A stretch of 58,753 nucleotides of DNA from Gammaproteobacteria bacterium (GTDB taxonomy: Bacteria > Pseudomonadota > Gammaproteobacteria > Eutrophobiales > Eutrophobiaceae): contig JANQJZ010000061.1 of assembly GCA_028281365.1 (NCBI GenBank), forward strand, positions 1 through 58,753, read 5' to 3'. Made by a program: the position numbers and the translations under genes. The notes under the pieces were generated by a model. The model was given only the letters and a program-made list of their open reading frames with translations, ran no database searches and had not been told where the DNA came from. Shown here one piece after another: positions 20,862-45,436 of this stretch; the stretch's first letter is position 1, and each line of letters opens with the position of its first letter.

Positions 20862-20923
20862 CGATAACAAACCTTGAATCCAGAGCTGAGAGGTCTATAC
20901 TCTCACTCCCTTTTACAACCGTA

Positions 20924-20996
20924 GTCCTGAGGAGCGTTGCGACGGAATAATCCGCTAGGCTCAGGGTAGAACGGCAAGATTAATAACGGCGCTCGC
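20924..20996 (+). promoter_or_regulatory. S-adenosylhomocysteine (SAH) riboswitch
   Basis: The ahcY leader contains the SAH-aptamer signature: CCTGAGGAGCGTTGCGACGG at 20926-20945, then CTAGGCTCAGG near 20955-20965, then AACGGCGCTC at 20985-20994. CCTGAG (20926-20931) pairs with CTCAGG (20960-20965), and GAGCG (20932-20936) can pair with CGCTC (20990-20994) to form the pseudoknot stem. Known SAH riboswitches are ON switches found upstream of ahcY. They raise expression when SAH accumulates, which is the substrate of the downstream enzyme. Confidence 0.88.
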
Positions 20997-21022
20997 TTAT
21001 TTTGTTTAACAGGAGAAACAAC

Positions 21023-25061: not shown

Positions 25062-26516
25062 ATGTATTATGACTATTATGGTTTAAAACAGCCCCCGTTT
25101 AAAATAACACCAGATACCAGTCTGTTTTTTCCTGGTGGAGATCGAGGTGCAATCCTGGATGCTCTCATTTATGCCATCGTTAGTGGCGAGGGCATCGTCA
25201 AACTGGTAGGTGAGGTAGGCAGCGGGAAAACGACTTTGTGTCGGATGCTTGAAAAAGAGCTGCCAAAAAATATTGAAGTAGTTTATTTAGCCAATCCAAG
25301 TCTATCACCTGATAATATTCTTCATGCAATTGCGTTTGAATTACATTTAAAAGTAAGACCGGATGACAGTCGTCTGAAAGTAATGAATTCATTACAAAAC
25401 TATTTACTGGAACGACACGCAGAAAATAAACAGGTTGTTGTTTTTGTGGAAGAGGCGCAAAGCATGCCTATTGCAACTCTGGAAGAGATTCGTTTACTAA
25501 GTAATCTGGAAACTGCTCAAAATAAATTATTGCAAATAGTAATCTTTGGCCAGCCGGAACTTGATGTCATGATTTCAAAACAGGAAATCAGACAATTAAA
25601 GGAAAGAATTACATATAGCTTTTATCTTGCACCACTAAAACCTGATGAAGTTAAAGATTATATTAATTCCCGTTTACGAGCCTGTGGTTATCGCTCTGTT
25701 GAACTTTTTAATGATACTGCAATAAAAAAGATAGCCAAATATTCAAAAGGTTTATTACGACGAATTAATATTCTGGCCGATAAAGCTATGTTGGCTGGCT
25801 ATGCAGATAATGTCAGTACTATTAAAGCAAAACATGTCAAATTAGCTGCCAAGGAAACGGAGTTTATCAGTTTACATAACATACCGATATTGCATTGGAG
25901 TTTGGCAGCTTTGTTAATTATTGCTTTTATTGGGGCAATGTTCTTCATACCAAAAATTAATTGGACATCATTTGATGTTCCTTCGCTTGTGAAGCATGAA
26001 GCAGATAAAAATAGCAGCAGTTTAGATTTTAATATAAATGATGATGTTGATGATGGCACATTAACGCTGCTTGACGAAACGGAAGCAAATCAAAATAAAA
26101 ATAAGGACAACAGCCAGTCAGCTGTTGCTATAAATAATACTTCTGAAAATTATGAAAATAAATCTTTAGAAAAAAAGATAGTATTGGAAGAACCTGTTCA
26201 GAGACCTGATCCTTCAGAATACTCTGAGCCTGATTGGCGTATCTTAGATAACAATGTTTATATATATCCGGAAGAAACGGAAGAGATTGTCATAGCAGAT
26301 AAACAAGATGATGACAGTCAAAATGACTTACTGGAAATACGTGATTTGATTCGATCAATTAGTGGTCGTAGTGAAGATGAAGAAGCATTGTTAAATCAAT
26401 TGAAAATTCTACCTTCCGAGGTTGCGATAAATTATAAATCTGTTGCTGAAGATCGTACTTGTAAGTTATGTAGCACAATTATTTATCGGCCTTTAAAAAA
26501 TGATGAAAAGCTTTAA
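25062..26516 (+). CDS. mshM: MSHA biogenesis ATPase MshM (ExeA/GspA-like)
   Basis: A 484-residue membrane-anchored AAA ATPase. Its opening YYDYYGLKQPPFKITPDTS is the ExeA/MshM signature. It has Walker A GEVGSGKTT at 50-58, a Walker B VVVFVEEAQ at 125-133 (Glu where many relatives have Asp), and sensor elements (IVIFGQPELD). One membrane segment lies at about 278-296. In this family the ATPase helps insert or assemble the secretin through peptidoglycan. The remaining 185 residues are an acidic, low-complexity periplasmic tail that ends unusually in a CKLC motif. It follows the regulator by 14 bases, and mshL comes next. Confidence 0.88.
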   Translation: MYYDYYGLKQPPFKITPDTSLFFPGGDRGAILDALIYAIVSGEGIVKLVGEVGSGKTTLCRMLEKELPKNIEVVYLANPSLSPDNILHAIAFELHLKVRPDDSRLKVMNSLQNYLLERHAENKQVVVFVEEAQSMPIATLEEIRLLSNLETAQNKLLQIVIFGQPELDVMISKQEIRQLKERITYSFYLAPLKPDEVKDYINSRLRACGYRSVELFNDTAIKKIAKYSKGLLRRINILADKAMLAGYADNVSTIKAKHVKLAAKETEFISLHNIPILHWSLAALLIIAFIGAMFFIPKINWTSFDVPSLVKHEADKNSSSLDFNINDDVDDGTLTLLDETEANQNKNKDNSQSAVAINNTSENYENKSLEKKIVLEEPVQRPDPSEYSEPDWRILDNNVYIYPEETEEIVIADKQDDDSQNDLLEIRDLIRSISGRSEDEEALLNQLKILPSEVAINYKSVAEDRTCKLCSTIIYRPLKNDEKL

Positions 26517-26581
26517 CTATTAATGAAATTAATCGAGACATTAAACATATGAATATAATTTTTCGGGGGAACTTTTTTAAA

Positions 26582-28228
26582 ATGATTAATAAAATCACCC
26601 TGTGTTTTATGCTGGCTTTTCTGGCATCCTGTGCAGAGATGGAACCAATACCAATTGAACCTTCAGAAGCACACATAAGTCAGGAAAAGTCTCCAGCCGT
26701 TGATACAAATATCCCGGAACTTGTTGAGCAAGTTCCAATATTGCCCGAACCGAGTGAGCCGGAACAACTTGAACGATATACGGTAGTTGTAAATGAAGTA
26801 CCCGTTAAGGAATTGTTATTTGCCCTTGCCCGGGATGCAAAGATTAATGTCGATATTAACCCTGAGATTGAAGGTAATGTAACGATTAATGCAGTGGAAC
26901 AAACCTTACCTCAAATATTAAAACGAATTTCAAAACAAGTAGACCTCAGGTACGAATATGATGGTGATAATCTGATAGTTTCTACAGATGAGCCATACCT
27001 GCATACTTATATTATTAGTTATTTAAATCTTGCCAGAGATACGACGGGTACTGTTGCTGTATCGACACAGATTGATTCCAGTACTGGTGGCGGGGCAGCT
27101 GATTTTTCCGGAAATAACTCGACTACAACAGTAACGAGCAGATCATTTCACCGGTTTTGGGAAAATCTCTCACAAAATATACACGCTATTATTGGTATAG
27201 AAGGAGGTTCGACTGGTGAAACAATTACATCCACCGAAAATGTAATCATCAGTCCTGAGAGTGGTGTCGTTACAGTTAAAGCAACTGCTGAACAGCATGA
27301 GGAAGTTCAATATTATATTGATCTCGTCACAGCCAGCCTGCAACGGCAGATATTAATCGAGGCAACTGTCGTAGAGGTAACACTGAATGATCAATTTCAA
27401 ACGGGTATTGATTGGGAATCTGTCAGGGTTGCAGCAGCTGGAGGATTGAGTATCGCAACCAGTTTGATTGGAACCCCCGGTTTAGCAGCAGCTCCTCCAT
27501 TTACTGCAACAACGTCATCTTTAATCCTGAATTATGATAATCCGGAAGGTGCCGGGAGAAATATATCGGCAACCTTGAGTTTATTAAGGGAGTTTGGCGA
27601 TACAAAAGTTCTTTCCAGTCCCCAATTAATGGTCTTGAATAATCATACTGCTGTTTTAAAAGTGGTTGAAAATTTTGTTTATTTTGATATTGAACAAGAG
27701 GTTGCAACAAGTACAGTTGCAGGTGTTGCGCCAACTGTAGCAACAACGGCGACTGCCCAGACTGTACCAATTGGTTTAGTTATGGCAGTAACACCACAAG
27801 TAGATAAAAATGATGTCGTAACTTTGAATATAAGGCCGACGATTTCTTCAGTTGTCAGTACTACCAATGATCCAACGCCAGGGCTTACGATTGCAAATGC
27901 GGTGCCTGTTGTTCGTGTCAGGGAAATGGAATCTATTCTCAGGGTTAATAATCAACAGGTTGCTGTTCTCGGTGGCTTAATGCAAGACACGGTTATAGCT
28001 GATAACAATGAAGTACCGTTTTTATCTGATATACCGATTGTGGGTGAAGGTTTTAAGTCTCGTGATAGACGATCACAAAAGTCTGAACTTGTTATCTTCA
28101 TTCGTCCGGTAGTCGTGAAAAATGCAAGTCTGGATGGAGATCTGGCGAATTATAAACAGTATCTGGAACGGCAAAATCTTTCATTGGATGATGTTAAACC
28201 GTCTATGAAACATTATCGAAAAGAGTAA
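26582..28228 (+). CDS. mshL: MSHA secretin MshL (PilQ/GspD family)
   Basis: The outer-membrane channel of the pilus. With the chosen ATG the 548-residue protein starts with the lipoprotein signal MINKITLCFMLAFLASC, so C17 would be lipidated. An STN-like domain follows (VPVKELLFALARDAKINVDI), then N-domains. The secretin core has VLSSPQLMVLNNHTAVLKV, a Gly/Val-rich gate region, VAVLGGLMQD and ELVIFIRPVVV. An upstream in-frame ATG at 26549 would lengthen it by 11 residues and spoil the signal peptide less cleanly; a GGGGGA lies before 26582 at rather long spacing. Order mshM-mshL-mshN is close to Vibrio MSHA loci. Confidence 0.9.
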   Translation: MINKITLCFMLAFLASCAEMEPIPIEPSEAHISQEKSPAVDTNIPELVEQVPILPEPSEPEQLERYTVVVNEVPVKELLFALARDAKINVDINPEIEGNVTINAVEQTLPQILKRISKQVDLRYEYDGDNLIVSTDEPYLHTYIISYLNLARDTTGTVAVSTQIDSSTGGGAADFSGNNSTTTVTSRSFHRFWENLSQNIHAIIGIEGGSTGETITSTENVIISPESGVVTVKATAEQHEEVQYYIDLVTASLQRQILIEATVVEVTLNDQFQTGIDWESVRVAAAGGLSIATSLIGTPGLAAAPPFTATTSSLILNYDNPEGAGRNISATLSLLREFGDTKVLSSPQLMVLNNHTAVLKVVENFVYFDIEQEVATSTVAGVAPTVATTATAQTVPIGLVMAVTPQVDKNDVVTLNIRPTISSVVSTTNDPTPGLTIANAVPVVRVREMESILRVNNQQVAVLGGLMQDTVIADNNEVPFLSDIPIVGEGFKSRDRRSQKSELVIFIRPVVVKNASLDGDLANYKQYLERQNLSLDDVKPSMKHYRKE

Positions 28229-28230
28229 TC

Positions 28231-30006
28231 ATGAGTTTATTAATGGATGCCTTGAAAAAGGCAGAAGAAGAAAAGAAACGGGCGGCTAAAAGGCTTGAAC
28301 AGGTTGAATCGGAGACCCATGCTGATACTGAATCCACTTCCCCTGTTGAGAATGATTCATCTGTCGATGAGCAAAATATTGCTGCAAGTAATGACGCAGG
28401 AAAACCGATATCAGATACTATTCAGTTATCATTAGAACCGATTGCCAAACAGGAGATAGTAGAAGATAAAATCCCGGAAACCAGCGTCAACAAGGAAGAA
28501 AGCGAAAATACAGGTAATATTGATTTAGAAGAATCAGCTGAAGTTATTAGTCCTCATTCTGAAGATCTAACATTGGAAAATCAGGCGTTGCCCGAGGCGT
28601 TTGATAAGACCAGGGAAGAATCAATAGATCTTAATGATACAACAATCATCGAAGGTTTAAGTACTGAAGACGTATCCGCTCCATTTGACGATACATTTCA
28701 TGGCGTTTTGTTTGAAGAGGAACAGGAAGTCGATCTTTATGAAGAGACATTACCTGGGGTCCCGGCAGAGACATTGGCTAAAGATCTTGGTGGCGGCGAA
28801 TATCATCCTACACCTGTTGCTGCACAAACAGTTTTTACTGCGAGTAAGGGGGTGGGCCAGAGTAAAACTTTTATTACATGGGCGATTGTAAGTGTTCTTG
28901 CGTTATTAGCAGTTGTTTCATTTTCAGTATTTTATTATTTCACTATTACACCTGTATCAAGAGAACTACCGTCACCGCTTGTTGCCCGTGGAATTGAATC
29001 GCTACCGGAAAGACCATCGGTTATTGAACCGGTATCAGAACCAGGAGTTGTATCCGGAACAATTATCAGCCCTGAACAGGAGGCTGAAACAGTTAATACC
29101 GGGAAAACCGTAATCGATGAAGAAACAGCAAAGCAAATTGTTTCAGAGTTTGATGATTTACAACAAGAGATAGCACAGGAAGAAGCCGGGATTATTGAAG
29201 AAGAATCAATACAACCAGAGGTTTCTTCTGAACAAGAAGAGATTGCATCCCTTGCCGATGAGACAGAGGAAAGTGCTGTAGAAGAAATACCGGTCGAGCC
29301 AGAAAGAATAGTAGCAGAAGATATCCCTGTAAAACCTGCAGAGCACATGAATGTATCCAAAGCCATGCCGTTGGAAAATATACAACTCGATACCAGCTTG
29401 ATACAAATCAGTAAGAACAAAAAACCTAAACAGGAAAATATAAAAATAAAAGAGGCGTTTAAGGCGTATCAACAGGGTCAGTATGCTATTGCAAAGTCAT
29501 TCTATCTGGATGTAATAAAGACAGAACCGGATAATCGTGATGCTCATTTGGGTCTAGCCGCGTTGGCAACTCTCGATAATGATCGTAGTAGTGCATATAG
29601 TCATTATGTGCACTTACTGGAATTAAACCCTGCAGACGCATTAGCTCTCAATAGCCTGGTTGCTTTGTCAAATAACCCTGATCCTGTATCTGACGAAAGC
29701 GTGATTAAAACGTTAATTCAAAAAGAGGGTGATTTGCCTTACCTGCATTTTTCTCTCGGAAACATCTATGCAAAACAACTACGTTGGGCAGAAGCACAAC
29801 AAGCCTTTTTCGATGCCTATCGTCTGGATACGACTAATCCGGATTATGTTGTAAATCTTGCTATTAGTCTTGATCATATTGGCCAGTATGGAACAGCGCT
29901 TGATTATTACAAGACTGCAATTGAACTCTCTGAGAATAATCAGGCCAGGTTTGATTCAAGATCTGTAAACAATCGTATTTTAACTTTATCAGAAATTATT
30001 AATTAA
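28231..30006 (+). CDS. mshN: MSHA biogenesis TPR protein MshN-like
   Basis: A 591-residue bitopic membrane protein. It starts with MSLLMDALKKAEEEKKRAAK, the usual MshN/GspB-type cytoplasmic head. A long acidic linker follows, then one membrane helix at about 214-238, another acidic proline-rich periplasmic stretch, and TPR units from about residue 405 to 575 (FKAYQQGQYAIAKSFYLDVI and following). TPR proteins of this place are thought to scaffold the periplasmic pilus machinery, in particular secretin assembly. The gap to mshL is two bases and to mshE five, so co-translation is likely. The two Glu-rich linkers are much longer than in Vibrio MshN. Confidence 0.82.
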   Translation: MSLLMDALKKAEEEKKRAAKRLEQVESETHADTESTSPVENDSSVDEQNIAASNDAGKPISDTIQLSLEPIAKQEIVEDKIPETSVNKEESENTGNIDLEESAEVISPHSEDLTLENQALPEAFDKTREESIDLNDTTIIEGLSTEDVSAPFDDTFHGVLFEEEQEVDLYEETLPGVPAETLAKDLGGGEYHPTPVAAQTVFTASKGVGQSKTFITWAIVSVLALLAVVSFSVFYYFTITPVSRELPSPLVARGIESLPERPSVIEPVSEPGVVSGTIISPEQEAETVNTGKTVIDEETAKQIVSEFDDLQQEIAQEEAGIIEEESIQPEVSSEQEEIASLADETEESAVEEIPVEPERIVAEDIPVKPAEHMNVSKAMPLENIQLDTSLIQISKNKKPKQENIKIKEAFKAYQQGQYAIAKSFYLDVIKTEPDNRDAHLGLAALATLDNDRSSAYSHYVHLLELNPADALALNSLVALSNNPDPVSDESVIKTLIQKEGDLPYLHFSLGNIYAKQLRWAEAQQAFFDAYRLDTTNPDYVVNLAISLDHIGQYGTALDYYKTAIELSENNQARFDSRSVNNRILTLSEIIN

Positions 30007-30011
30007 TCATT

Positions 30012-31727
30012 ATGACTGGCGCTCATAAAAAACATCTTCGACTTGGTGAAATCCTTATAAATAAAGGCGTAACCACGCTTGATCAAATTGATATTGCGTT
30101 AACGGAACAAAAAAAGAGTAAGGAGCACCTCGGTAAGATTCTTGTGCGATTAGGCTTTGCAACCGAGGCCATAATAAGGGATGTTATTGGTGGCGTAATC
30201 GGCCAGGAAAGTGTCGATTTAAATACGGCTGTAGCAGATAGTGATGCCATCTCAATGATTCCTAAAGACATGGCGCGTCGATTACGAATTTTGCCATTAA
30301 CCTATGACAATAGACGCCGTTTATTGACATTGGCAATGGCGGATACATTTAATGTTGTTGCACTGGATCAAATTAATACTCATCTTAGTGGTAATGCAGA
30401 GGTTATTCCAGTATTAGCAGGCGAGGCAGAAATTGAAAAAGCAATTGATCAATTTTATGGTTTTGAACTTTCTGTTGACGGCATTTTACATGAAATAGAA
30501 ACAGGTGAAATTGATTATCAAAGTCTTGATGCTGAATCAGATGAATATAGTCAACCTGTTGTCCGTCTCGTAAACGCATTACTTGCTGATGCAGTTAAAA
30601 GGAATGCATCGGACATTCACTTTGAACCTGAAGAAGGTTTTTTACGATTCCGCTATCGTATTGATGGTGTGCTTCGTCAGATAAGAAGTCTTCATAAAAA
30701 TTACTGGTCAGCAATTGCAGTTCGTTTAAAGGTAATGGCTGCTATGGACATCGCAGAAACAAGGGCACCTCAAGATGGACGTATTTCTTTATCATTTTCC
30801 GGCAGATTGGTTGATTTCCGGGTCTCTACTCTACCTACAGTACATGGTGAAAATATTGTTCTCCGTGTATTGGATAGACAGAAAGGTATTGTTTCATTTG
30901 AGGAACTTGGATTAAAGGATGATGCACTTAATGCTTTAAAACTTATGGTCGCCCGGCCAGAAGGAATTATATTGGTAACCGGACCAACTGGTAGTGGTAA
31001 GACAACGACACTCTATTCGATATTGAATTATCTGAACACAGAATCAGTAAATATCATGACCCTGGAAGATCCGGTTGAATACCCGACAACAATGATTCGA
31101 CAAACATCTGCAAATGAAACATCAAGGCTCGACTTTGCAAGTGGTATTCGATCGCTTATGCGTCAGGACCCGGATATCATACTTGTTGGTGAGGTGCGTG
31201 ATGAAGATACTGCAAGTATGGCATTTCGTGCCGCAATGACAGGACATCAGGTATTTTCAACATTACATACAAATTCAGCGTTAGGTTCTATCCCAAGGTT
31301 ACTCGATATTGGCGTTAAACCAGACATTATCGCAGGAAATATAATCGGGATAATAGCGCAACGACTTATTCGCAAATTATGTAACGCTTGTAAAGAAGCT
31401 TATCCATTAGGCGATTTGGAAAGAAGTTTACTCGGATTAAAAATTACGGATAAGCAAAAAGAAATTTTCAAAGCAAAGGGTTGCGATAAATGTGATAACC
31501 AGGGTTTTAGTGGACGACTTGCTTTACAGGAAGTATTGCACTTTGACTCTGACATGGATGAATTAATCGCAAGAAAAGGCACGCAGCGTGACTTATTACG
31601 TCTTGCATTATCCAAAGGTTTTAGAACATTAGCTGATGTAGGTGCAAGTCGTGTTCTGGATGGTTCCACCAGTTTGGAAGAAATGTCACGTGTAGTCGAT
31701 CTAACAGCAAGATTAAAGACCAAATAA
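30012..31727 (+). CDS. mshE: MSHA pilus extension ATPase MshE (GspE/PilB family)
   Basis: A hexameric ATPase that powers pilus polymerisation. The 571-residue protein has an N-terminal MshEN-like region at 8-65 with LRLGEILINKG and a second HLGKILVRLGF half, the family's c-di-GMP-binding motif. The second half has His in place of the usual basic residue. It also has Walker A GPTGSGKT at 324-331, Walker B DIILVGEVRD at 388-397, the TGHQVFSTLHT His box, and a tetracysteine zinc module (CNACKEAYP and CDKCDNQGF) near 460-500. It lies between mshN and mshG with gaps of a few bases. Confidence 0.93.
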   Translation: MTGAHKKHLRLGEILINKGVTTLDQIDIALTEQKKSKEHLGKILVRLGFATEAIIRDVIGGVIGQESVDLNTAVADSDAISMIPKDMARRLRILPLTYDNRRRLLTLAMADTFNVVALDQINTHLSGNAEVIPVLAGEAEIEKAIDQFYGFELSVDGILHEIETGEIDYQSLDAESDEYSQPVVRLVNALLADAVKRNASDIHFEPEEGFLRFRYRIDGVLRQIRSLHKNYWSAIAVRLKVMAAMDIAETRAPQDGRISLSFSGRLVDFRVSTLPTVHGENIVLRVLDRQKGIVSFEELGLKDDALNALKLMVARPEGIILVTGPTGSGKTTTLYSILNYLNTESVNIMTLEDPVEYPTTMIRQTSANETSRLDFASGIRSLMRQDPDIILVGEVRDEDTASMAFRAAMTGHQVFSTLHTNSALGSIPRLLDIGVKPDIIAGNIIGIIAQRLIRKLCNACKEAYPLGDLERSLLGLKITDKQKEIFKAKGCDKCDNQGFSGRLALQEVLHFDSDMDELIARKGTQRDLLRLALSKGFRTLADVGASRVLDGSTSLEEMSRVVDLTARLKTK

Positions 31728-31730: not shown

Positions 31731-32936
31731 ATGGAATTTTATCAATACAAGGCAATTGATGAACAAGGCCGTATACATAATGGCCAGGTCGATGCGGTTA
31801 ATATTGCTGATCTTGAAATGCGCCTGCGTAAACTCGGGCTTGATTTGGTTAATTATAAGGAAGTTAAATCAAGTGCGCAGCGTGTTACCGGATCAGGTGT
31901 AAAAAGGCGCGATCTAATAACATTTTGTTTCCATCTTGAACAAACATCCCGCGCAGGGGTACCGATTCTCGACAGCTTACAGGACCTCAGGGATAGTGCT
32001 GATAACCCGCGATTGGCAGAGGTTGTAAATGCCATGATTGAAGCTATCGAGGGTGGTAAAACGCTTTCAGAAGCGATGATGGATTTTGAAGTTGTTTTTG
32101 GAAATATATTTACCAACCTGGTTAAGGCTGGTGAACAATCCGGAGAAATCAGCCAGGTATTCGAGAAACTTGGTGAAAACCTTAAATGGCAAGATGAACA
32201 AGCAGCACAAACGAAAAAATTATTAATGTATCCGGCTTTTGTCGGAACAGTCGTTGGTGCGGTTGTTTTCTTTCTTATGACTTATCTTGTTCCGGAATTA
32301 TTAAAATTTGTTAAAACTATGGGACAGGAGTTACCGGCTCATACCAAGGCCCTTATAGTTGTTTCAAATATATTTGTAAATTACTGGTATATATTATTAC
32401 TTTTACCAATTGTAATTATTCTTGTAATTTATATCGGGATAAAAGTAAGCCCTCGTTTTCATCTTATGTATGATGAGCTTAAATTAAAGATTCCTGTAAT
32501 CGGGCCAATCCTGAAAAAGATTATTTTAACGAGACTCTCCAGTTTTTTTGCCATTATGTATGCCTCAGGGATAACAATTATTGAATGTATTAGAACAGGC
32601 GAAGAGATCGCCGGGAATAAATCAGTTGAATTAGCTATGCGACAGGTAGGACAACAAATTGCCGATGGTATGACTCTGAGCGATAGTTTTGAATCAACAA
32701 AATTATTTCCGCCACTCGTGCTGCGTATGATACGTGTCGGTGAAAACACGGGTGCATTACAAGATGCTTTGTTAAACATCAGCTATTTCTATTCGCGTGA
32801 TATTAAAGAATCAATTGAACGACTTCAGGCGATGATTGAACCAGGCATGACCATGATCCTCGGTTCTATTATTGCATGGGTTATGTTTTCTGTATTAGGA
32901 CCGATTTATGATCTCATTACTAAAGTCAAAATCTGA
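31731..32936 (+). CDS. mshG: MSHA inner-membrane platform protein MshG (GspF/PilC family)
   Basis: The polytopic platform on which the extension ATPase acts. The 401 residues include the N-terminal YQYKAIDEQGRIHNGQ motif, two repeated GspF domains (about 65-190 and 270-390, with FEKLGENLKWQDEQ and the matching LLNISYFYSRDIKESIERL), and three membrane helices near 170, 220 and 375. Length is standard. The end overlaps the start of mshI by 29 bases; the overlapping ATG at 32908 has AGGA in front. Confidence 0.93.
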   Translation: MEFYQYKAIDEQGRIHNGQVDAVNIADLEMRLRKLGLDLVNYKEVKSSAQRVTGSGVKRRDLITFCFHLEQTSRAGVPILDSLQDLRDSADNPRLAEVVNAMIEAIEGGKTLSEAMMDFEVVFGNIFTNLVKAGEQSGEISQVFEKLGENLKWQDEQAAQTKKLLMYPAFVGTVVGAVVFFLMTYLVPELLKFVKTMGQELPAHTKALIVVSNIFVNYWYILLLLPIVIILVIYIGIKVSPRFHLMYDELKLKIPVIGPILKKIILTRLSSFFAIMYASGITIIECIRTGEEIAGNKSVELAMRQVGQQIADGMTLSDSFESTKLFPPLVLRMIRVGENTGALQDALLNISYFYSRDIKESIERLQAMIEPGMTMILGSIIAWVMFSVLGPIYDLITKVKI

Positions 32937-34488
32937 TTTTTTTGATAGTCGGGCGCTATATATTAGTACCGATAAAATATCGGTATATCATTGGCACAAG
33001 GGTAAGTTAGGCAGTTCATACCTGTTTGATAAAGATGATACAGGCAGGGAAAATTTCAAACGTTACTTACAGGAATCTGCCAATACGCCAATAAATATTG
33101 TGGTAGATATCATTGAAGAGGAATTCCGTCAGGATACTATTCCTCATGTATTTGGTTCAGATCGCAAGGCCATTATCGAACGCAAGCAATCCCGTCTGTT
33201 TCGCGATGCAGCCTATTTTTATACACAAAACCAGGGCAGGGAAGAAGCGGGAAGGCGTGACGATCGGCTGTTATTTATGGCTATTAATAACCGGGATATA
33301 TTGACACCGTGGATAACATTACTGGATGAACATAAAATACCATTAAGAGGTATTCTGTCTATTCCCTTACTTCTCCAGTCATTTGTAAAAACGATACCGG
33401 ATTTATCTGACCACGCACTGGTCGTTTCGTTACATAGTATCAGTGGATTAAGGCAAACTTATTTTCACAGTAAACACTTACAAATTAGCCGTCTTTCAAA
33501 ATTACCCCGTTTTGGCACGGTTTCATATGCCCCCAGGATAATCGCTGATGTTGAGAAGATACAGCGTTATATAAACAGTTTAAGACTAGTTCCAAATGAT
33601 GCTTCTTTAGATGTCTATTTCATGGCAGATAGATCAACACTGAACCAGTTGAAAAACGAGACCATCGCATCGCCAATGGTTCGCCGAAATTATCTCGACA
33701 TAAATAAGTTATTTGAGTCAGACGATAGCAATCTTTCAAGGTCTACACCATTTTGTGATCATTTATTAATGCATCATTTGTTAGAGGCAAGGGTTAAAAA
33801 TTGTTACGCATCTGACAAAGAAATGCGCTATTCGAAAATGCGTAATATTCGATATGCTATGAATATTGCCAGTATTCTTTTACTTGTTACCAGTTTTATT
33901 TATGGCGGTATTAATATAATGGGTGCGTTAACTTATCAACAGGAGAGTGAAGCATCTAAGAGCAAGGCAGCCTTTTACCAGACAAGGTACAACCTAGCCA
34001 GGGAACGTTTACCTAAAACACCAGTTGAGCCGGCACAGGTTAAAATTGCAGTAGATGCAGCAAAAACGCTAAAACAATATAAATCTACTCCGTATGAGAT
34101 GTTAACTTACCTGGGCAAAGGGTTAGAGAAATTTCCAGAAATTAAACTTGATAACCTGGAATGGAGTTATAGCATTAGCCCGGTCGGTAATGATACATCC
34201 AATAATGACAGTGATTTACCACCAGATCTAAATGATGAAAACAAGGTTAAGTATTATCAAATATCAAATATAAAGGCACATATTGATCCGTTTGACGGGA
34301 ATTATCGTGAAGCGATATCTTTGGTAAATGAATTCGCGGAAACATTACGAAGCTTTGAATCGACACACCAAATCATTATTGAGTCATTCCCACTCGATAT
34401 AAGTTCGGATGCGCAATTGCAGGGAGATTACGGTGGCGTAGGGAAAGAAGCGTTATTTACATTAACAGCAATTATCGGGATAAATTAA
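32908..34488 (+). CDS. mshI: MshI-like pilus assembly protein (PilM/PilN/GspL type)
   Basis: A 526-residue bitopic inner-membrane protein with a cytoplasmic actin-like domain (residues about 1-300), a single membrane helix at 317-340 and a periplasmic coiled-coil/ferredoxin-like part of about 185 residues. This plan is that of GspL or of a PilM-PilN fusion. Direct similarity is weak and rests on position before mshJ and mshK and on topology. It overlaps mshG by 29 bases and mshJ by one (TAATG), so it belongs to the same operon. It would link the ATPase/platform to the periplasmic MshJ-MshK. Confidence 0.7.
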   Translation: MISLLKSKSDFFDSRALYISTDKISVYHWHKGKLGSSYLFDKDDTGRENFKRYLQESANTPINIVVDIIEEEFRQDTIPHVFGSDRKAIIERKQSRLFRDAAYFYTQNQGREEAGRRDDRLLFMAINNRDILTPWITLLDEHKIPLRGILSIPLLLQSFVKTIPDLSDHALVVSLHSISGLRQTYFHSKHLQISRLSKLPRFGTVSYAPRIIADVEKIQRYINSLRLVPNDASLDVYFMADRSTLNQLKNETIASPMVRRNYLDINKLFESDDSNLSRSTPFCDHLLMHHLLEARVKNCYASDKEMRYSKMRNIRYAMNIASILLLVTSFIYGGINIMGALTYQQESEASKSKAAFYQTRYNLARERLPKTPVEPAQVKIAVDAAKTLKQYKSTPYEMLTYLGKGLEKFPEIKLDNLEWSYSISPVGNDTSNNDSDLPPDLNDENKVKYYQISNIKAHIDPFDGNYREAISLVNEFAETLRSFESTHQIIIESFPLDISSDAQLQGDYGGVGKEALFTLTAIIGIN

Positions 34489-35117
34489 TGGAAAACAACG
34501 ACAGTAATATTGACTGGAGCATCCTTAGAGGATCGATAATATTTTTAATTTTGTGCCTTGTAATCTGTAGTGGATTAATTGGAGGCAGTTATTACTTCAA
34601 TGATAGTCAAAATCGCGAATTGAAAAGAAATAAAGCCATTTTTACATCAATCAGTAGAAAATATCTTGATGTCGATCAGGAAGAAAAACTGGTACAGGAT
34701 TTCTACCCCCAGTTTGTTAAATTATATAACAAGGGAATTATTGGAAGAGAGCAAAGGTTAAACTGGATTGAGGCTTTGCGGCAATCTGGCGAGCAGATTA
34801 AATTACCGGCCTTAAGATATTCGATTAATTCGCAACAGGAATATACACCTGGTTTCGACATTAATTACCAGGGTTATAAACTTTATCGCAGTACTATGGA
34901 ATTAAATCTTGGCTTATTACATGAAGGCGATCTATTTAAATTACTAAATTACATTAACAAAAATGCGAATGGCACATATACGATTTCAGAATGTTCTTTT
35001 GAACTAGATGGTATCGAAATTAAATATGATAAAAATCACACAAATATATCAGCAAAGTGTATGTTGCATTGGATTACCATTGATCTGGATGATGATAGAA
35101 GGATTGAAATCGGATGA
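34488..35117 (+). CDS. mshJ: MshJ-like pilus assembly protein (PilO/GspM type)
   Basis: A 209-residue protein with a short cytoplasmic tail, one membrane helix at 13-36 and a periplasmic domain, the layout of PilO, GspM and MshJ. The assignment depends on size, topology and location between mshI and mshK-like, since sequence motifs are poor in this family. The start shares a base with the mshI stop, and its end overlaps the next start as ATGA (35114-35117). It likely forms the inner-membrane alignment complex with MshI. Confidence 0.7.
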   Translation: MENNDSNIDWSILRGSIIFLILCLVICSGLIGGSYYFNDSQNRELKRNKAIFTSISRKYLDVDQEEKLVQDFYPQFVKLYNKGIIGREQRLNWIEALRQSGEQIKLPALRYSINSQQEYTPGFDINYQGYKLYRSTMELNLGLLHEGDLFKLLNYINKNANGTYTISECSFELDGIEIKYDKNHTNISAKCMLHWITIDLDDDRRIEIG

Positions 35118-35560
35118 AGACGATTTATTTTCTCAAACGAATTTTTTTATTCCTCTTTTGCGCAACCTTGATCTTGCCGGTGAATGCTGATGAGTTGGGA
35201 CGGCTGTTTACCACGCAATCTGAAAGAGCAAAGCTGGAAAAAATAAGGTATGCAAAACCGAAACCTGAAGTAGTAGAAGAAATTGAGATTGAAGAAATTA
35301 TCGAACCCATTGTTGAAGAGGAAAAAGTCGTACGAGATGTGATTACTGTAAGAGGTTTGGTACATCGAAGTGATGGCAAGAATACTGCCTGGATTAATAG
35401 CAGTAATACTTATGAAGGCGACCTGGAATCCCAATATATAGAAGTATCCAGTGAACAGATATCAACGGAAGATGTCACAATTGTAATGCCCGATAATGAG
35501 ACTAAAATTAAGATAAAAGTCGGTGATTCTTTTGATCCCGAGAGTCAGGACGAAAACTAG
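35114..35560 (+). CDS. MshK-like periplasmic protein
   Basis: A 148-residue exported protein: signal peptide of about 25 residues (FLFLFCATLILPVNA), then LGRLFTTQSERAKLEKIRYA, a motif common in MshK-like proteins, an acidic Glu/Ile linker and a small beta-rich C-terminal domain (VRGLVHRSDGKNTAWINSSN). It is comparable in plan and position to PilP/GspC-type bridge proteins that connect the inner-membrane complex to the secretin. Position after MshJ supports this; direct function is inferred. Confidence 0.7.
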   Translation: MKTIYFLKRIFLFLFCATLILPVNADELGRLFTTQSERAKLEKIRYAKPKPEVVEEIEIEEIIEPIVEEEKVVRDVITVRGLVHRSDGKNTAWINSSNTYEGDLESQYIEVSSEQISTEDVTIVMPDNETKIKIKVGDSFDPESQDEN

Positions 35561-35585: not shown

Positions 35586-38500
35586 ATGCATTATATAAAT
35601 TGTATATCCTCTCGTCAGTGCGGTGCTGCAATGTTGGCATTCTTGTTAATTTTAATTGCAGCCTCGTCTTATGCATTAGTGACCAAATTAAATGCAAATG
35701 TACGGACATATACCAGGGACAGTTCGAGTCTTGGCAGTTTAAATGATGCCAAGGCAGCTTTGATTGGCTATGCTGTAAATTACCCTCTGGACCATGCTGG
35801 AAAGGGCCCCGGATATTTGCCGTGCCCGGACATTAATAATAATGGCAGTGCCGGGTCTTCATGTTCATTGTCTGGTAATACAACAATTGGTCGCATACCG
35901 TGGAAAACACTGGAACTGGACCATCTTCGAGATGCAGCAGGTGAAACGTTATGGTATGCAGTTGCTGATAATTTTCGCAGTAATCCCTCTTTGGATATCT
36001 TAAATAGCGAAACACCGGCTCAATTTACCCTGGACGGTAATACCGATGTCGTCGCAGTCATTATTGCGCCGGGTTCTGTGATAGGAGCACAGGAAAGAGA
36101 CAGGACCGATACAAATATCTCTACCGAGATAGGTAATTATCTGGAAGATGATAATAATGATTTTGATATTGATTTTATATCTGTTGATCCTGATGCATCG
36201 AATATTAATGATTTTAACGATGTCATTATCACAATAACTCGTGATGAATTGATGGAGGCAGTTGAGAAACGGGTATTAGGTGAAGTTAAGTCTGCACTAT
36301 CAAACTACAAAACAACACATGGTGCTTATCCCTGGGTGTCTGTATTTACTGATCCTAAAGCGGTTGTCCGACAACTTACTGGTACTGCAGATGCCGGAAG
36401 TAATGCAACAACATTGGTTGACAGCGCTAATAACTTTACCTTGCGAGGTGTCACAGTCGGAGATGACGTTTACAATATCACTGATGGTTCCCTGGGTATA
36501 GTAAGTGCGGTTTCAGCCAATTCACTAACTATATCCAGCCTTTCTTTAGGTACCGAGGATGATTTTGATACCGGTGATGGATATGTCATTGTTCCAAAAT
36601 CAACATCTTCGATATTAACAAACGTCGCCACGGTCGGCGGCGATAATAATACATTAGCTGATAGTGTTAATGATCTAACACAAATAGGTGCGGAAGTTGG
36701 TGATGTAATCGACAATATTACAGATGGCTCATCTGCAACTATTACATCTATCTCAACGAATGAAATTGAAGTAGATGGCCTGAGTGGTGGAACAGATAAC
36801 CAGTTCCAAACAAATGATGATTATCAGATTAGAACCAATTACGGTCAGTCAACGAACTCATCTTCAAGTACGACTCAATTAGATGACAGTAATAAAAATT
36901 TTATTGCAATGGGTATACAGGCAGGAGAGTTGCTCATTAACCATACGGACGGTTCCATAGGCAAGGTATCTGCTGTTGTTGATGCAGATACACTAACCGT
37001 AGAAAAACTTGAATTTGGTTCAGACAATACTTTCGAGGCTAACGACTATTACTCATTGCCAAAATACAACACGGATAATAATACACGTAATGGACTACTC
37101 TCGATTCATGAGACAGGAAAACATTTCTCTACCAGTTTCGATATCGATCTCAATATTTCCTTATTGCAAAATTCACAGGTAAGTTTTGATTCTGTTGGAT
37201 ATCCGGCTGTCGATGCAACTTATTCAGCAGCTTTGGAAACTCATATCAGGAATTACTACGCTGCTCCATTTAATGATTCATTCTCGATTAGTTTAAATAA
37301 TGGGGTATGTCGCTGGTTTGCCCCTGATATTGCCGAGTGTTATGGTCCGTATACATCAGAAAATATAAACATATCCGGAACGATTACTTCAGGCTTCAAC
37401 ACTGCAATAGTTAATGATAGTAATGCAGACTTTGTAACAGATGGCATAAAGCGGGGTGATATTGTACAGAATTATGATGATGAGTATTTTGTAGTATCCG
37501 GAACTGCTGATGCAGGCACCCGGGGAACGGCAACGGGAGCAAGCATTGGTTTGGTATTAGCCGATACAAACAATAATTTTGTAAATCTTGGTGTTGCTGT
37601 AGGCGATACGATTACCAATGTTACTGATGGTTCAAGTGGCACGGTTTCAACAGTTGCTGCAAACCAGATAACAGCAGACGCCTTAACCGGTGGAACGGAC
37701 AATGATTTTGATTCCGGTGATACTTATCAGGTAACAGGTTCGGCAAAGATGTATGATGCTGGCACCAATCTGAGCACAAATAATGTTTCAGCATACCAAT
37801 ACCTGATTCATAACAATACAACAGGTATTCGTGCTGTAATTACGGATGTCGATACAGACAATTCATTGAGTGCAGTTGAGTTTGCGAATCAGGGTAGTTC
37901 GATTACGTTTTCACCCGGCGACAGTTTTTCAATCTATACACCGGGTATTGTTGTAGTCTCTGCACGTAATAGTTCCACGCAATTAACGACAACCAGATCG
38001 GGGAATTATAATCCGGATTTCGATCTGATAGGCTCCTACGAAGAGTATTACAGGATTTTACCTGCTGCTAATTCAACAGCTAATAGTACGGTAAGCGATG
38101 TCGATTCTACGGGTTCGACAGACAGATTTACAGATACCTCCGCATCATTTTTTGCAGAAGGTGTAACAATAGGAGACATTATTGAAAATGTAACGGATGG
38201 TTCATTCGGAGAGATAACAAATGTCGATGACGCACAAACCATTACAACCCGGTTATATGGTGGTAGTGAATCAGACTTTGAGGAAGACGATGTTTATATT
38301 ATTTATCATGATTATGTTTATTCCAGAGTGCATGAGTTCCATACTCGAATTTCGGGTGACGTCGTAACTGGAACGTCTGCACAGGAGAGAGTGCGCGAAG
38401 TATGTATGAATTACACGGGCACTGATTGCGTTAATATTAATCCCAATCAAGATTTTACCGGTAATGGTGGTACACCACTTATTACTGTTCGGGATTTCGA

Positions 38501-38963
38501 AGAAGACGGGCTAACCGAAGTAGGTCGTGCATTTTTTACACCCGATACCGGTACCGAAGGAAGTCTTAAGGTATCTAATATTGATTATTATTTATCAGAA
38601 TTAGGCGGGGACTTACCCTCCTGGTTTACCGAAAACGACTGGCATAAATTTGTCTATGTTGCCTATAGTGTCGGTGACGTCCCCGGTGCAGCCTCTGCCT
38701 GTGTAGCTGGCACTAATTGTTTAACCTTGAATGGTGTCGGTAATCCGAATAATGATAAAAATGCGATTTTAATAGCAGCTGGGGATGAAATTAATACAAC
38801 ACTGGATAGTTCATGTGGCACGATTACCTCTACTGCTCAGAACAGGGCAAACGGCACGATTAATGAATATTTTGAATCCGGAAATTGCAGTCAGGGGGAT
38901 GATGCTTTTCAAAAGCAAACATTCACAACTACATTCAATGATTTGATAAGGATTGTTGAATAA
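35586..38963 (+). CDS. Giant pseudopilin-like protein with about 70-residue tandem repeats
   Basis: A 1125-residue protein. The N terminus RQCGAAMLAFLLILIAASSY is a class III signal-like segment with cleavage expected after G13, but the conserved Glu at mature position 5 is absent, as in the tip pseudopilins GspK and PilX. Residues 54-135 form a pseudopilin domain (AALIGYAVNYPLDHAGKGPG, LPCPD, RIPWKTLELDHLRDAAGETL) shared with the next gene. A beta-rich repeat occurs at about 266-337, 345-415, 422-493, 639-718 and 833-905, with weaker copies at 600-640 and 720-786. Its consensus is DSxNxFxxxGVxVGDxIxN then TDGSxGxVSxV, then GGTDNxFxxGDxY. Ten cysteines are present, the last in a C-terminal domain (930-1125). 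It could be a pilus-tip adhesin or stalk. Confidence 0.8.
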   Translation: MHYINCISSRQCGAAMLAFLLILIAASSYALVTKLNANVRTYTRDSSSLGSLNDAKAALIGYAVNYPLDHAGKGPGYLPCPDINNNGSAGSSCSLSGNTTIGRIPWKTLELDHLRDAAGETLWYAVADNFRSNPSLDILNSETPAQFTLDGNTDVVAVIIAPGSVIGAQERDRTDTNISTEIGNYLEDDNNDFDIDFISVDPDASNINDFNDVIITITRDELMEAVEKRVLGEVKSALSNYKTTHGAYPWVSVFTDPKAVVRQLTGTADAGSNATTLVDSANNFTLRGVTVGDDVYNITDGSLGIVSAVSANSLTISSLSLGTEDDFDTGDGYVIVPKSTSSILTNVATVGGDNNTLADSVNDLTQIGAEVGDVIDNITDGSSATITSISTNEIEVDGLSGGTDNQFQTNDDYQIRTNYGQSTNSSSSTTQLDDSNKNFIAMGIQAGELLINHTDGSIGKVSAVVDADTLTVEKLEFGSDNTFEANDYYSLPKYNTDNNTRNGLLSIHETGKHFSTSFDIDLNISLLQNSQVSFDSVGYPAVDATYSAALETHIRNYYAAPFNDSFSISLNNGVCRWFAPDIAECYGPYTSENINISGTITSGFNTAIVNDSNADFVTDGIKRGDIVQNYDDEYFVVSGTADAGTRGTATGASIGLVLADTNNNFVNLGVAVGDTITNVTDGSSGTVSTVAANQITADALTGGTDNDFDSGDTYQVTGSAKMYDAGTNLSTNNVSAYQYLIHNNTTGIRAVITDVDTDNSLSAVEFANQGSSITFSPGDSFSIYTPGIVVVSARNSSTQLTTTRSGNYNPDFDLIGSYEEYYRILPAANSTANSTVSDVDSTGSTDRFTDTSASFFAEGVTIGDIIENVTDGSFGEITNVDDAQTITTRLYGGSESDFEEDDVYIIYHDYVYSRVHEFHTRISGDVVTGTSAQERVREVCMNYTGTDCVNINPNQDFTGNGGTPLITVRDFEEDGLTEVGRAFFTPDTGTEGSLKVSNIDYYLSELGGDLPSWFTENDWHKFVYVAYSVGDVPGAASACVAGTNCLTLNGVGNPNNDKNAILIAAGDEINTTLDSSCGTITSTAQNRANGTINEYFESGNCSQGDDAFQKQTFTTTFNDLIRIVE

Positions 38964-38980: not shown

Positions 38981-39772
38981 ATGAAGTATAAATATAATAA
39001 TTATAGTGGTTTTACACTTGTTGAATTGGCAATGGTGCTATTTATCCTTGCATTGTTGTTGGGTACATTACTAACACCACTTGCGACGAGCATTGAACAA
39101 CAGGACCGTGAAACCACGACAAAATTATTAGAGGATATCCGTGATAGTCTACTTGGTTACGCGATAGTTAATGGTCATTTCCCATGTCCGGATTGTTCTG
39201 ATACGGTAACGGGAAGTTGTGCTACTGTTAATACTGTCGATTCAAGCTGGATCAATAATGGTGAAGAGGATGGCGTCGATAACCCTGTTACTACTGCTAC
39301 AAATGATCGCAGTTCTGCAAATTTTGTAAGTTGCGCAACCGAGGTTGGGAACTTGCCCTGGGTAACTCTGGATGTCCCGGAAAATGATGCCTGGGGCACA
39401 CGTTTTATTTATAGAGTAAACACGATATTTGCAGATAATACTGACGGTACAGCCAGTTGTACCAATCCTGCCGCTAATGTTTCTTTTTGTCTGGATTCTG
39501 CTAATGATGCGACATTAGATGTCCAGGATGTTAGTGGCAGTTCTGTCGCAGCTGACGTTCCTGCTATAGTTGTATCAGTGGGCAATAATAGTGACGAATT
39601 ATTTACTAATTTATCATCTTTAGAGCAACAAAATCAGGATGGAACAGCAAATACGATTTTTATAGCCGATGATTATCAACAACAGTCCGGTGCCGAATTT
39701 GATGATTTGCTAATCTGGATTACCCCACCAACCTTGATGTTTCATATGGTTAAAGCAGAAAAATTACCTTAA
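38981..39772 (+). CDS. Pseudopilin with class III signal peptide
   Basis: A 263-residue prepilin-like protein starting MKYKYNNYSGFTLVELAMVL, with cleavage after G10 and the canonical Glu at mature +5. The globular part repeats the pattern of the preceding giant protein: DSLLGYAIVNGHFPCPD, NLPWVTLDVPENDAWGTRFI, with four cysteines clustered around residues 65-115. It probably forms a minor pilin complex with its neighbour. Its 3' end overlaps the end of the convergent histidine-kinase gene by nine bases, so these two transcripts interfere. Confidence 0.85.
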   Translation: MKYKYNNYSGFTLVELAMVLFILALLLGTLLTPLATSIEQQDRETTTKLLEDIRDSLLGYAIVNGHFPCPDCSDTVTGSCATVNTVDSSWINNGEEDGVDNPVTTATNDRSSANFVSCATEVGNLPWVTLDVPENDAWGTRFIYRVNTIFADNTDGTASCTNPAANVSFCLDSANDATLDVQDVSGSSVAADVPAIVVSVGNNSDELFTNLSSLEQQNQDGTANTIFIADDYQQQSGAEFDDLLIWITPPTLMFHMVKAEKLP

Positions 39773-41452
39773 ATTATTATTAATATTTGTCATTTCAAAA
39801 CAAACATTACCATCCTGATTTTTATTTAGTATTAACTCATACCCTACAGACTGGGCTTGTAACGCAGCCTGATAAAGCCCTATACCCAGACCATTATCTG
39901 AATCCAACGGTTCAAATAATATAACTTTCGAAATATTTTCCGGAATTGCCTTTCCATTATCAGAAAATTTTAAACTAATTGATTTATCATTACACAATAA
40001 AGATGTTTTGGCTGTAATATTGGATTCAGATTTTAATTTAGATTGGAAATTTTCCTTCAGGTTATCAAAGACACTATCGAATAAATCTACAGGAATAAGT
40101 GGGTCACCATTAATATCAGACTCAAAAGTTATGTAAGAATCTTCATTCCTGGATTGAATATCCTGCCACCAGTCTTTTAAATAAATCAGCTTGTTTTCCG
40201 TATCAATGGGTGATTGCAGCTTATCCAATGCCAATTGTAATCTTTGGGTTAATGTCGGTAATTGGCGTTTAAGTAAGTCTTGTGTAACAGCTTTATCTGC
40301 ATCACTTGAATCAATAAGAAGAACGCTGGTAATAGCATGAAGTGATTGCAGTAAATTTTTTATATCATGTGTTATTCTTGCGCCCGTTTCATATATCGCT
40401 TTTAAATGTGTTTGTTTCGTTAATTCCTTTTCTCGTATTTTTCCGATATATAAATTACATACAAGTTTTATTAATAACTGGCAATGTAATTGTAATGCAC
40501 CGCCTGTTGCTCCATAGGTGTATAGTTTTACATGTAGCTCATGATCTTTTAAATTTAGCTCGTATGTATTTATTTCGCCTATTGTTCCTTTAGAAGTTTT
40601 AGTGCTCCATGAAACACCGGAAATCCACTCGAAATTTGCAAGTTCCTGCATGGCTGCTTCCAGAAAAGTATTTGCAGTTTCCTGTTTTTCTGCATGAATA
40701 GAAAGCTCAGTTAACCATAGTTCAAATGGAGTACCAATATTCAATAATGAATTAGACCAAAGTTGAGTAAATTCACTATAACGTGACTGCGATGTTAATA
40801 ACCAACTGATAAATATTATGCATAAACCAATCGCAACGGACACTTGAATTAAAGCAACAATATAAGTGGTATTGCTTAAATACATATTTAGCAAACTACC
40901 CATTGAAACCAGGCTGGCCAACATCGAAGTATTAATCGCATGTAATAAATCGACAGGGTATTGAGTGTTTGGTCCCTGCGTAACTGTAGGTAGAAATAGA
41001 ATAATGACAGGTAATATAGGTAGAACTATTTTAAAAATACCTTCAAAACCCGTTTCAGTATTCGCTAACATTGTTGTACAAGCCATAAATAATTGGCTGA
41101 CCAGAAAAATGACAACAATTAAAAATATAGCTCTTTCACTACGGATTGTAATAACACGTCCGCTTACAAACCCTATTAATAAAACCAGCCAGGTAAAAAG
41201 TAGCCAGAGATTTAGCCAGTAAACCGTGAGAAAGGTAAGCGTAATAAATAAAATACCATAATCCAGTCTAAGTCTTTCATCACTTTTCCAGATTGGTTGC
41301 CAGATAAGGAATAAGCCAAAATGAACCAGCATTAAAGATTTAGAGAGCAGGCTGCCAAAATCCAGCCATATCGACAGATGCAGCAATTCAAGCATTAAGG
41401 CAAGTAAAAAAATATTGCTTTTTGACTTAATAATTTTGAATATATTCGACAT
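39764..41452 (-). CDS. Membrane sensor histidine kinase
   Basis: A sensor of about 562 residues with about seven N-terminal hydrophobic helices (residues 17-225), a GAF-like middle (about 240-340), an H-box ETGARITHDIKNLLQSL with phospho-accepting His about residue 362, and an ATPase domain with FDNLKENF (N box), KFSDNGKAI and GLGIGLYQAALQAQ. The ATG at 41452 was used; a GTG twelve bases upstream is also possible. It is the only orphan kinase in the pilus locus, so it is the likely partner of the response regulator at 23605. The membrane region may sense the envelope or pilus state. It is divergent from the ABC permease. Confidence 0.85.
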   Translation of the reverse strand: MSNIFKIIKSKSNIFLLALMLELLHLSIWLDFGSLLSKSLMLVHFGLFLIWQPIWKSDERLRLDYGILFITLTFLTVYWLNLWLLFTWLVLLIGFVSGRVITIRSERAIFLIVVIFLVSQLFMACTTMLANTETGFEGIFKIVLPILPVIILFLPTVTQGPNTQYPVDLLHAINTSMLASLVSMGSLLNMYLSNTTYIVALIQVSVAIGLCIIFISWLLTSQSRYSEFTQLWSNSLLNIGTPFELWLTELSIHAEKQETANTFLEAAMQELANFEWISGVSWSTKTSKGTIGEINTYELNLKDHELHVKLYTYGATGGALQLHCQLLIKLVCNLYIGKIREKELTKQTHLKAIYETGARITHDIKNLLQSLHAITSVLLIDSSDADKAVTQDLLKRQLPTLTQRLQLALDKLQSPIDTENKLIYLKDWWQDIQSRNEDSYITFESDINGDPLIPVDLFDSVFDNLKENFQSKLKSESNITAKTSLLCNDKSISLKFSDNGKAIPENISKVILFEPLDSDNGLGIGLYQAALQAQSVGYELILNKNQDGNVCFEMTNINNNLR

Positions 41453-41530
41453 TAATGATTTCACTTGGAAAAATGCATAATATATATATTACACTATTAT
41501 TTTAATTTAAATATTAAGCGATTCGATCAT

Positions 41531-42301: not shown

Positions 42302-42316
42302 TTGGTATTACCCTGA

Positions 42317-44638: not shown

Positions 44639-45325
44639 ATGAAGATTAGTAAGCAGAAAGGTTTTACCCTAGTGGAAATCGCAATTGTCCTGGTAATTAT
44701 TGGTTTGCTTTTAGGCGGAATTCTTAAAGGCCAGGAATTAATCAATAGTGCCCGGGTTCGTAACCTGGCCGATCAAAATTCAGGCGTGCAGGCTGCGTAT
44801 TATGGTTTTATTGACCGTTACCGCCAGGTACCGGGTGACTGGTCTGCAAGTGCGGCTACAACCGCTATCGGACAGACGATTAATAGCGGTGGTGATGGTG
44901 ATGGTCGGATTGATGTTACTGACAGTTTTGTAGAATCAGGAGGCGTTTGGGAACAATTATCCAAAGCCGGGTTCATATCTGGAAACTATGTTGGTAGTAG
45001 TGATGAAGCTACCTATCGGGCTAATGCTCCGGTTAATGCTTTCAATGGTGCCGTTTTATTAAAACGTACAACCGATTATGCGGGAACAGCGCCGGAAAGA
45101 CTGGCTTTTATGTTTGGTGAACAAATACCGGTCAGTATTATGCGGGAACTGGATGTGAAGCTGGACGATGGTGTCCCCACAACGGGTGTCTTGCGATTTG
45201 TAGATCCTGCTGGAAGTGATGGCGGTAATGAAGTGTATGATAGTGCATCTGCCACTTGTGTTAATGGCGGTGATTGGGATATCGCTGCAAATTCACAGGA
45301 TTGTACCGGTGTGTTCTTGTATTAA
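44639..45325 (+). CDS. Major type IV pilin / prepilin (MshA-like)
   Basis: A 228-residue prepilin. The leader is MKISKQKG with cleavage before F9, followed by FTLVEIAIVLVIIGLLLGGI; Glu13 is mature position 5. The head has helix ARVRNLADQNSGVQAAYYGF, a Gly/Asp-rich GGDGDGRID segment that could bind calcium (about residues 84-92), and a C-terminal disulfide loop C207-C222. It has a dedicated sigma54 promoter and its own terminator, so it is expressed as a single highly regulated unit. That, and the lone pilin sequence in the locus, mark it as the probable major subunit. The similarity to Vibrio MshA is limited to the N terminus. Confidence 0.88.
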   Translation: MKISKQKGFTLVEIAIVLVIIGLLLGGILKGQELINSARVRNLADQNSGVQAAYYGFIDRYRQVPGDWSASAATTAIGQTINSGGDGDGRIDVTDSFVESGGVWEQLSKAGFISGNYVGSSDEATYRANAPVNAFNGAVLLKRTTDYAGTAPERLAFMFGEQIPVSIMRELDVKLDDGVPTTGVLRFVDPAGSDGGNEVYDSASATCVNGGDWDIAANSQDCTGVFLY

Positions 45326-45380: not shown

Positions 45381-45436
45381 AAGCAGTAAATAATTTATAT
45401 TTTAAATAATTTAATGTCGTGGGGGGCATTAGCCTG

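Follow-up and report, generated by a model that had tools for sequence, protein, structure and literature searches.

GspK lacks the glutamate at position +5 (Glu5) that belongs to the type IV prepilin signature. It shares this absence with PilK, and in both tip pseudopilins it goes together with an insertion in the pilin head and a neighbouring partner pilin that has Glu5. A subunit without Glu5 caps the tip complex (PMC10191384), and GspK has its inserted domain in the pilin fold; modular pilins carry adhesive or binding domains that are grafted onto a pilin (PMC8179133). In PilB and PilC of Streptococcus sanguinis, for instance, named vWA or lectin domains follow a single pilin module (PMC8179133). 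The mannose-sensitive haemagglutinin (MSHA) pilus of Vibrio cholerae is encoded by the gene set M-L-N-E-G-I-J-K and possesses an MshE-type ATPase that binds cyclic di-GMP (c-di-GMP). Here, we analyzed a window of 58,753 nucleotides from a gammaproteobacterium of the order Eutrophobiales (GCA_028281365.1, contig JANQJZ010000061.1), which encodes a putative giant GspK-like modular minor pilin of 1125 residues at 35586..38963 on the forward strand (ATG start; labelled BIG in the following). We assume that BIG, as a minor pilin of the tip type, belongs to a second, MSHA-like filament of the type IV class and acts as a modular adhesin or tether with ligand-binding barrels, and we estimate the probability of this reading at roughly 60%.

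A comparison with these systems revealed shared features as well as clear differences. BIG resembles the GspK/PilK type in all three points mentioned above, but it does not match the T2SSK profile, has two pilin-like modules instead of one and carries an all-beta repeat insert rather than an alpha-domain. In contrast to PilB and PilC, it contains several unnamed phage-type barrels inside the second pilin-like module and belongs to a diderm, MSHA-like system. The locus has the same gene set as the V. cholerae MSHA pilus, including the c-di-GMP-binding type of ATPase, but it lacks MshQ, and BIG and a sister pilin directly follow the K-position gene. The presence of mshE, mshG, mshL and mshM has been used to define an MSHA system (PMC6668835), and counterparts of all four were found at the BIG locus, with MshL exactly at the cut-off and MshM represented by an ExeA-like ATPase at the expected place. 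The SU10-type head-tail adaptor of phages (PF24175), a neck protein of the virion, has one copy of a 70-residue module in common with BIG, with clear sequence homology, and is otherwise unrelated to it. Modular tip pilins as such are already known, but within the searches made, which covered the open-licence literature, the BIG variant appears to be new, in particular the unnamed, phage-shared tandem barrel within the second of two pilin modules and its occurrence in a second MSHA-like system.

Pilin-like modules of BIG

The N terminus of BIG shows the hallmark of type IV prepilins, a basic leader that ends with Gly(-1) (residues 1-13, 35586..35624; SSRQCG followed by AAMLA) and precedes a long hydrophobic alpha-1 helix (residues 14-69, 35625..35792; residues 9-69 in the AlphaFold model), which is conserved in homologues. 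An alignment of 68 homologous rows, some loci being represented twice by one record, contains Gly(-1) in all 68 rows and Glu(+5) in none of them. BIG itself has alanine at +5 and therefore departs from the prepilin signature at this position, for which tip-capping subunits are the known exception.

The sister pilin is located immediately downstream (38981..39772), adjoins BIG in nearly all loci, has Glu5 (GFTLVE), matches the N_methyl family PF07963 above the cut-off and displays a weak similarity to GspG in the profile scan. Comparing it with residues 14-218 of BIG (module 1, 35625..36239) resulted in an hhalign E value of 7e-22, thus the head of BIG is homologous to a recognised pilin. Furthermore, the C terminus (residues 1005-1125, 38598..38960) matches the corresponding part of module 1 with an E value of 3.4e-10, and single-profile searches agree. 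Judged by these comparisons, BIG consists of two pilin-like modules in tandem, both of them relatives of the sister pilin. The second module opens with a helix and a loop (EAVEKRVLGEVKSALSNY...GAYPW..FTDP, residues 219-258, 36240..36359), as indicated by homologue comparison and AlphaFold, and in short homologues (L073, L076) it is whole and uninterrupted in the order helix, YP..., GRLPED..., WF..NGW, YLED.N, ND. In BIG, three repeats directly follow the element GAYPW..F.DP of module 2, and the remaining copies precede its conserved end WF..NDWHK..., so that the insertions probably occupy a loop region of this module, which comes after the helix and before the later strands.

The first-pass annotation of this DNA had described a 1125-residue open reading frame (ORF) with a prepilin-like N terminus devoid of Glu5 and a smaller sister pseudopilin next door, all of which agrees with our results. 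Its picture of a pilin with repeats holds for the pilin nature, but it was incomplete, since there are two pilin-like modules and the repeats sit in the second. The designation as cysteine-rich had to be dropped, as BIG contains 12 cysteines in 1125 residues (1.07%).

The repeats, their fold and their phage relatives

For scoring the repeats in BIG, the profile was retrained on proteins of other genomes only. Five full copies were detected: repeat 1 (residues 263-338, 36372..36599; profile match 266-335, 75 bits), repeat 2 (343-418, 36612..36839; 347-415, 64 bits), repeat 3 (420-495, 36843..37070; 424-490, 70 bits), repeat 5 (644-718, 37515..37739; 647-716, 83 bits) and repeat 7 (834-907, 38085..38306; 840-906, 56 bits). 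In addition, the same profile recognised a half copy (597-641, 37374..37508; 598-640, 32 bits) and a degenerate copy (717-786, 37734..37943; 718-783, 22 bits). Leave-one-out profiles inside BIG gave 53-79 bits for each full copy, whereas none of the 999 shuffles made for each copy exceeded 12.6 bits. As the true copies score so far above their shuffles, the repeats are not a product of chance. They are acidic and poor in lysine, with a pI of about 4. Searches of Pfam, NCBIfam, PHROGs and PDB sequences with the whole protein or the repeat as query returned nothing significant. The five clear and two degenerate repeats counted at first inspection, and the impression that they belong to no recognised named domain, are therefore well founded.

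To what extent the repeats belong to the protein can be judged from its homologues. Repeat-free relatives of about 300-650 residues occupy the same gene position in Beta- and Gammaproteobacteria and still reveal both modules, which argues for the pilin part as core and the repeats as additions. Plotted on the module 1 tree, the presence of repeats requires six changes, no fewer than four of which are enforced by well-supported branches, and the simplest reading of the tree would be one gain followed by several losses. One close relative (L064; module 1 about 46% identical) is a repeat-free protein of 350 residues with a short module 2, and at L050:8186-9440 the homologue is distributed over two overlapping frames, one for each module, suggesting a frameshift. 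For the first three repeats, the nearest neighbour is the same position in another species in 49 of 54 cases and never a copy of the same protein (0/54); because of this match by position across species, the three-repeat array must be old, and a recent duplication was rejected. Within Eutrophobiales, repeats were found in 27 of 53 genomes, and among the matches listed all are located in BIG or its fragments. An initial profile search in 398 Pseudomonadota found the window's genome only, but a broader profile found more, so this result does not indicate absence elsewhere: the repeat is present in nine of 369 Gammaproteobacteria. Eight of the nine carry it in BIG within an MSHA-like locus, which adds four families to that of the window, and the ninth has a single copy in a 593-residue ORF resembling a phage virion protein.

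The module also occurs in viruses, and its phage relatives were found only by a motif scan of viral contigs combined with a hidden Markov model. The scan provided 91 stretches, 74 of which contained a total of 76 viral ORFs recognised by a repeat profile trained on pilins alone; since the scan was seeded with the motif, these counts say nothing about the total frequency. Reversed and shuffled controls produced zero matches, and 38 viral ORFs remained at E<1e-3 after the 13-residue search motif had been masked. The typical viral carrier is about 300-320 residues long and has a single copy near residues 135-205. Scanned against Pfam, one carrier of this size matches SU10_adaptor (PF24175) with an E value of 3e-14 and another of 436 residues with 3e-11, whereas a 1228-residue carrier has the N terminus of a tail fibre and further carriers, large and virion-like, hold as many as five copies. 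Identity between pilin and viral copies reaches 56%. A tblastn search of annotated phage and plasmid collections found no match for the repeat consensus, and likewise none for the phage versions of the repeat. Taken together, the BIG repeat shows clear homology to a module found in virion proteins of phages, and BIG joins a pilin module to a domain that occurs outside type IV filaments, as modular pilins do. Among single viral contigs, L191 encodes a 1177-residue ORF with five module copies, and L203, L146, L175 and others encode SU10-type head-tail adaptors with the module in mid-protein, apparently as an insertion in the neck protein.

The repeat is predicted by AlphaFold as a six-stranded barrel with high confidence (predicted local distance difference test, pLDDT, 97.3 for repeat 5; input alignment of 67 pilin and viral copies). 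In a Foldseek search against predicted viral models, the best match reached an E value of 1.6e-6 and a TM score of 0.83 at 48% identity. The best solved structure is the tailspike of phage Solidus (24qj; Z 8.7, 2.7 Å over 74 residues), followed by a virion protein of a gene transfer agent (6tba_7A; Z 7.8, 2.3 Å over 71 residues). Residues 490-566 of lambda gpJ can also be superimposed on the barrel (Z 6.6-6.8, 2.4-2.8 Å over 66-71 residues), and this segment coincides with the gpJ beta-domain 483-569, which is inserted in the HDIV domain (PMC10721106). The gpJ domain and the C-terminal region of the Solidus tailspike are similar in structure, but neither has significant sequence similarity to the repeat. 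As the Z scores are middling, the structural matches were not read as a sign of common descent, and homology was assigned by sequence matches only. The N-terminal barrels of F1/V1-ATPases and domain 2 of EF1A (Z about 6-7) were rejected as a clue to function, because this small barrel is common and the scores are tied.

The repeat had at first been treated implicitly as private to this pilin, which is not supported in view of the phage virion proteins that carry it. The first-pass annotation had also named a match to a domain of unrelated role as the finding that would speak against a tip adhesin. This applies in part, since phage virion proteins do carry the repeat, but the viral role is not clearly unrelated because tail fibres and other proteins of tail type are among the carriers, and therefore the tip-adhesin idea probably keeps its place as the leading reading.

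Proposed function of BIG and alternatives

Based on these comparisons, BIG might function as follows. The prepilin peptidase, of which one was found in the genome, would cleave BIG after Gly13. As BIG lacks Glu5, it would be unable to form a salt bridge to a subunit above and would cap the filament. The sister pilin, which has Glu5, could dock beneath it as in the GspK/I/J or PilHIJK tip complexes, and the pair would prime the filament, whose tip the MshE-like motor would drive through the secretin. The acidic barrels may then extend from the tip like beads on a string and bind a surface or a polysaccharide, which would turn the filament into an adhesin or tether of the modular-pilin type, with the repeats as an optional effector on a conserved tip pilin.

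Several points weigh against this proposal. Neither N_methyl nor any other Pfam or NCBIfam pilin family matches BIG, in contrast to the sister pilin; T2SSK does not match either, and no Pfam family is found at E<=1. Since the pilin and T2SSK profiles all miss BIG, its status as a pilin rests on homology. The full-length AlphaFold model is of moderate quality (mean pLDDT 71.5), so that the packing of the domains is not established. The repeats are not essential, because some close relatives do without them, and the head-tail adaptors of phages contain the module with no obvious adhesive role, perhaps as a structural or decorative element. Moreover, tip location, export, surface display and binding are inferred rather than directly observed.

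The main rival regards the repeats as no more than a passive stalk or spacer, in which rigid barrels lengthen the tip and hold the distal part of module 2 off the shaft, with binding left to the C-terminal module or a partner protein. We regard this as rather unlikely, although it fits several results: the repeats separate the two parts of module 2 and the C-terminal piece is conserved, the first three repeats are contiguous and kept by position, and copy number varies to the point that repeats can be lost. But if module 2 folds as one unit, the ends of the insert lie close together and the repeats would loop out instead of spacing the C terminus, and unrelated virion proteins hold the same module as a single inserted copy.

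Somewhat less probable is a secretion pseudopilus similar to that of the type II secretion system, with BIG as a GspK-like tip that contacts cargo or secretin and repeats that recognise the cargo. GspK has in common with BIG the absence of Glu5, the sister pilin is weakly GspG-like and genes for an ABC transporter accompany the locus; an insertion in the pilin fold is a further shared feature (PMC8179133). However, the match of the secretin to MshL and the MshE-type c-di-GMP domain of the ATPase are both characteristic of surface pili, a dedicated cargo was not identified, and a 228-residue prepilin encoded nearby could serve as major pilin. Less likely still is a role of the repeats in phage interaction, in which a binding specificity shared with phages would make them a decoy, a receptor mimic or a competitor for the same glycans. 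The identity of up to 56% between pilin and viral copies, the restriction of the module in the sampled Gammaproteobacteria to BIG and one phage-like ORF, and its wide distribution in viral contigs would be in favor of such a role, but nothing links a particular phage to the hosts concerned, the array of three repeats has long been conserved by position instead of changing fast, and the viral scan was seeded with a motif while the sampling of cellular genomes was limited. An artefact, be it chance low-complexity Asp/Gly/Thr/Ser repeats, as the acidic, lysine-poor composition might suggest, or a mis-joined assembly, is already refuted by the independent profiles, the leave-one-out scores, the shuffles and the recurrence in half of the genomes of the order and in other gammaproteobacterial families.

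Returning to BIG as a modular adhesin, we tentatively consider it possible that the tip subunit of a type IV filament has acquired, in tandem copies, an unnamed surface-binding barrel derived from or shared with viruses, and that the ligands of this barrel are possibly contested with phages. If so, bacteria and phages would present the same binding module at the ends of their attachment devices. In any case, modular pilins gain a new architecture, in which one of two pilin modules contains an inserted array of phage-type barrels, and an unclassified domain common to phage virions and a presumed pilus tip suggests a shared building block for surface proteins. This raises the question of which ligand the barrel has and in which direction it was borrowed between pilus and phage. 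Should polysaccharides on surfaces turn out to be the ligands, a single motif would allow adhesive parts to be predicted in the pili and phage tails of uncultured bacteria.

The MSHA-like locus and its surroundings

The locus, which runs on the forward strand as far as the sister pilin, starts with the MshM/ExeA-like ATPase (25062..26516; profile scan and synteny), the MshL-type secretin (26549..28228; TIGR02519, at the cut-off score of 250.2), a TPR protein in the MshN position (28231..30006; profile scan and synteny), the MshE-like extension ATPase with an MshE-related c-di-GMP-binding domain (30012..31727; NF053729 above the cut-off) and the MshG/GspF-like platform protein (31731..32936; profile scan). 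For the proteins in the MshI (32908..34488), MshJ (34488..35117) and MshK position (35114..35560), only gene position and synteny were used for the assignment. Next come BIG and the sister pilin, then a gene for a membrane histidine-kinase-like protein on the opposite strand (39764..41464; weak HATPase_c below the cut-off, conserved beside the locus) and ABC permease genes. The same order is found in 19 of 20 loci of relatives and also in named Beta- and Gammaproteobacteria, among them Propionivibrio limicola, Betaproteobacterium GR16-43 and metagenome-assembled genomes of Accumulibacter and Methylococcaceae.

The K-position gene precedes BIG in 19 of 20 loci of relatives, 18 by homology search and one (L050) by eye, and in four Burkholderiales loci (L087, L090, L094, L099) two extra pilins lie in between. 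As to the suggested check whether relatives of BIG always stand after mshK, they nearly always follow the K-position gene, in the wider set with K alone or, in Burkholderiales, K plus extra pilins. The reading proposed at the outset, a GspK-like minor pilin of the tip type encoded in an MSHA-like operon, is supported. The exception is a short contig (L034) where a repeat-bearing BIG is located beside bolA, murA and his genes instead of msh genes; either the gene has truly moved or the assembly may be at fault.

A fuller MSHA-type cluster stands elsewhere in the genome on contig C75, together with an MshQ-like protein (open frame of 1726 residues) that represents the genome's sole match to DUF6701 (MshQ), none being located in the BIG locus. 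We therefore regard the BIG locus as a second MSHA-like filament system, one that is conserved but little described. A PilY1-family protein is encoded on contig C10, and PF05567 (PilY1/PilC tip adhesins) is absent from BIG in the Pfam scan. With both homologues encoded elsewhere, BIG is distinct from MshQ and PilY1, as had been suspected, and BIG as a replacement for MshQ and the genome's only MSHA adhesin was rejected. Contig C3 of the same genome (L284) harbors another type IV filament locus, which encodes an extension ATPase, a second ATPase frame, a protein resembling secretins and two prepilins recognised by the profile of the sister pilin.

Downstream of the kinase-like gene, a further prepilin with Glu5 (44639..45325, forward strand, 228 residues; prepilin N terminus and synteny) is a candidate for the major pilin. 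The regions 41465-43054 and 45419-46189 encode an ABC-2-type permease, an unknown protein of 245 residues and an ABC ATPase, the first two of which accompany the pilus locus in most relatives. An adenylate/guanylate cyclase-domain protein on the reverse strand (43071-44351) is conserved beside the locus in many relatives. Upstream of the locus, the window also contains a 6S RNA (1867-2050, reverse strand) and an S-adenosylhomocysteine (SAH) riboswitch (20923-21001, forward strand) directly upstream of an S-adenosylhomocysteine hydrolase-like ORF at 21002.

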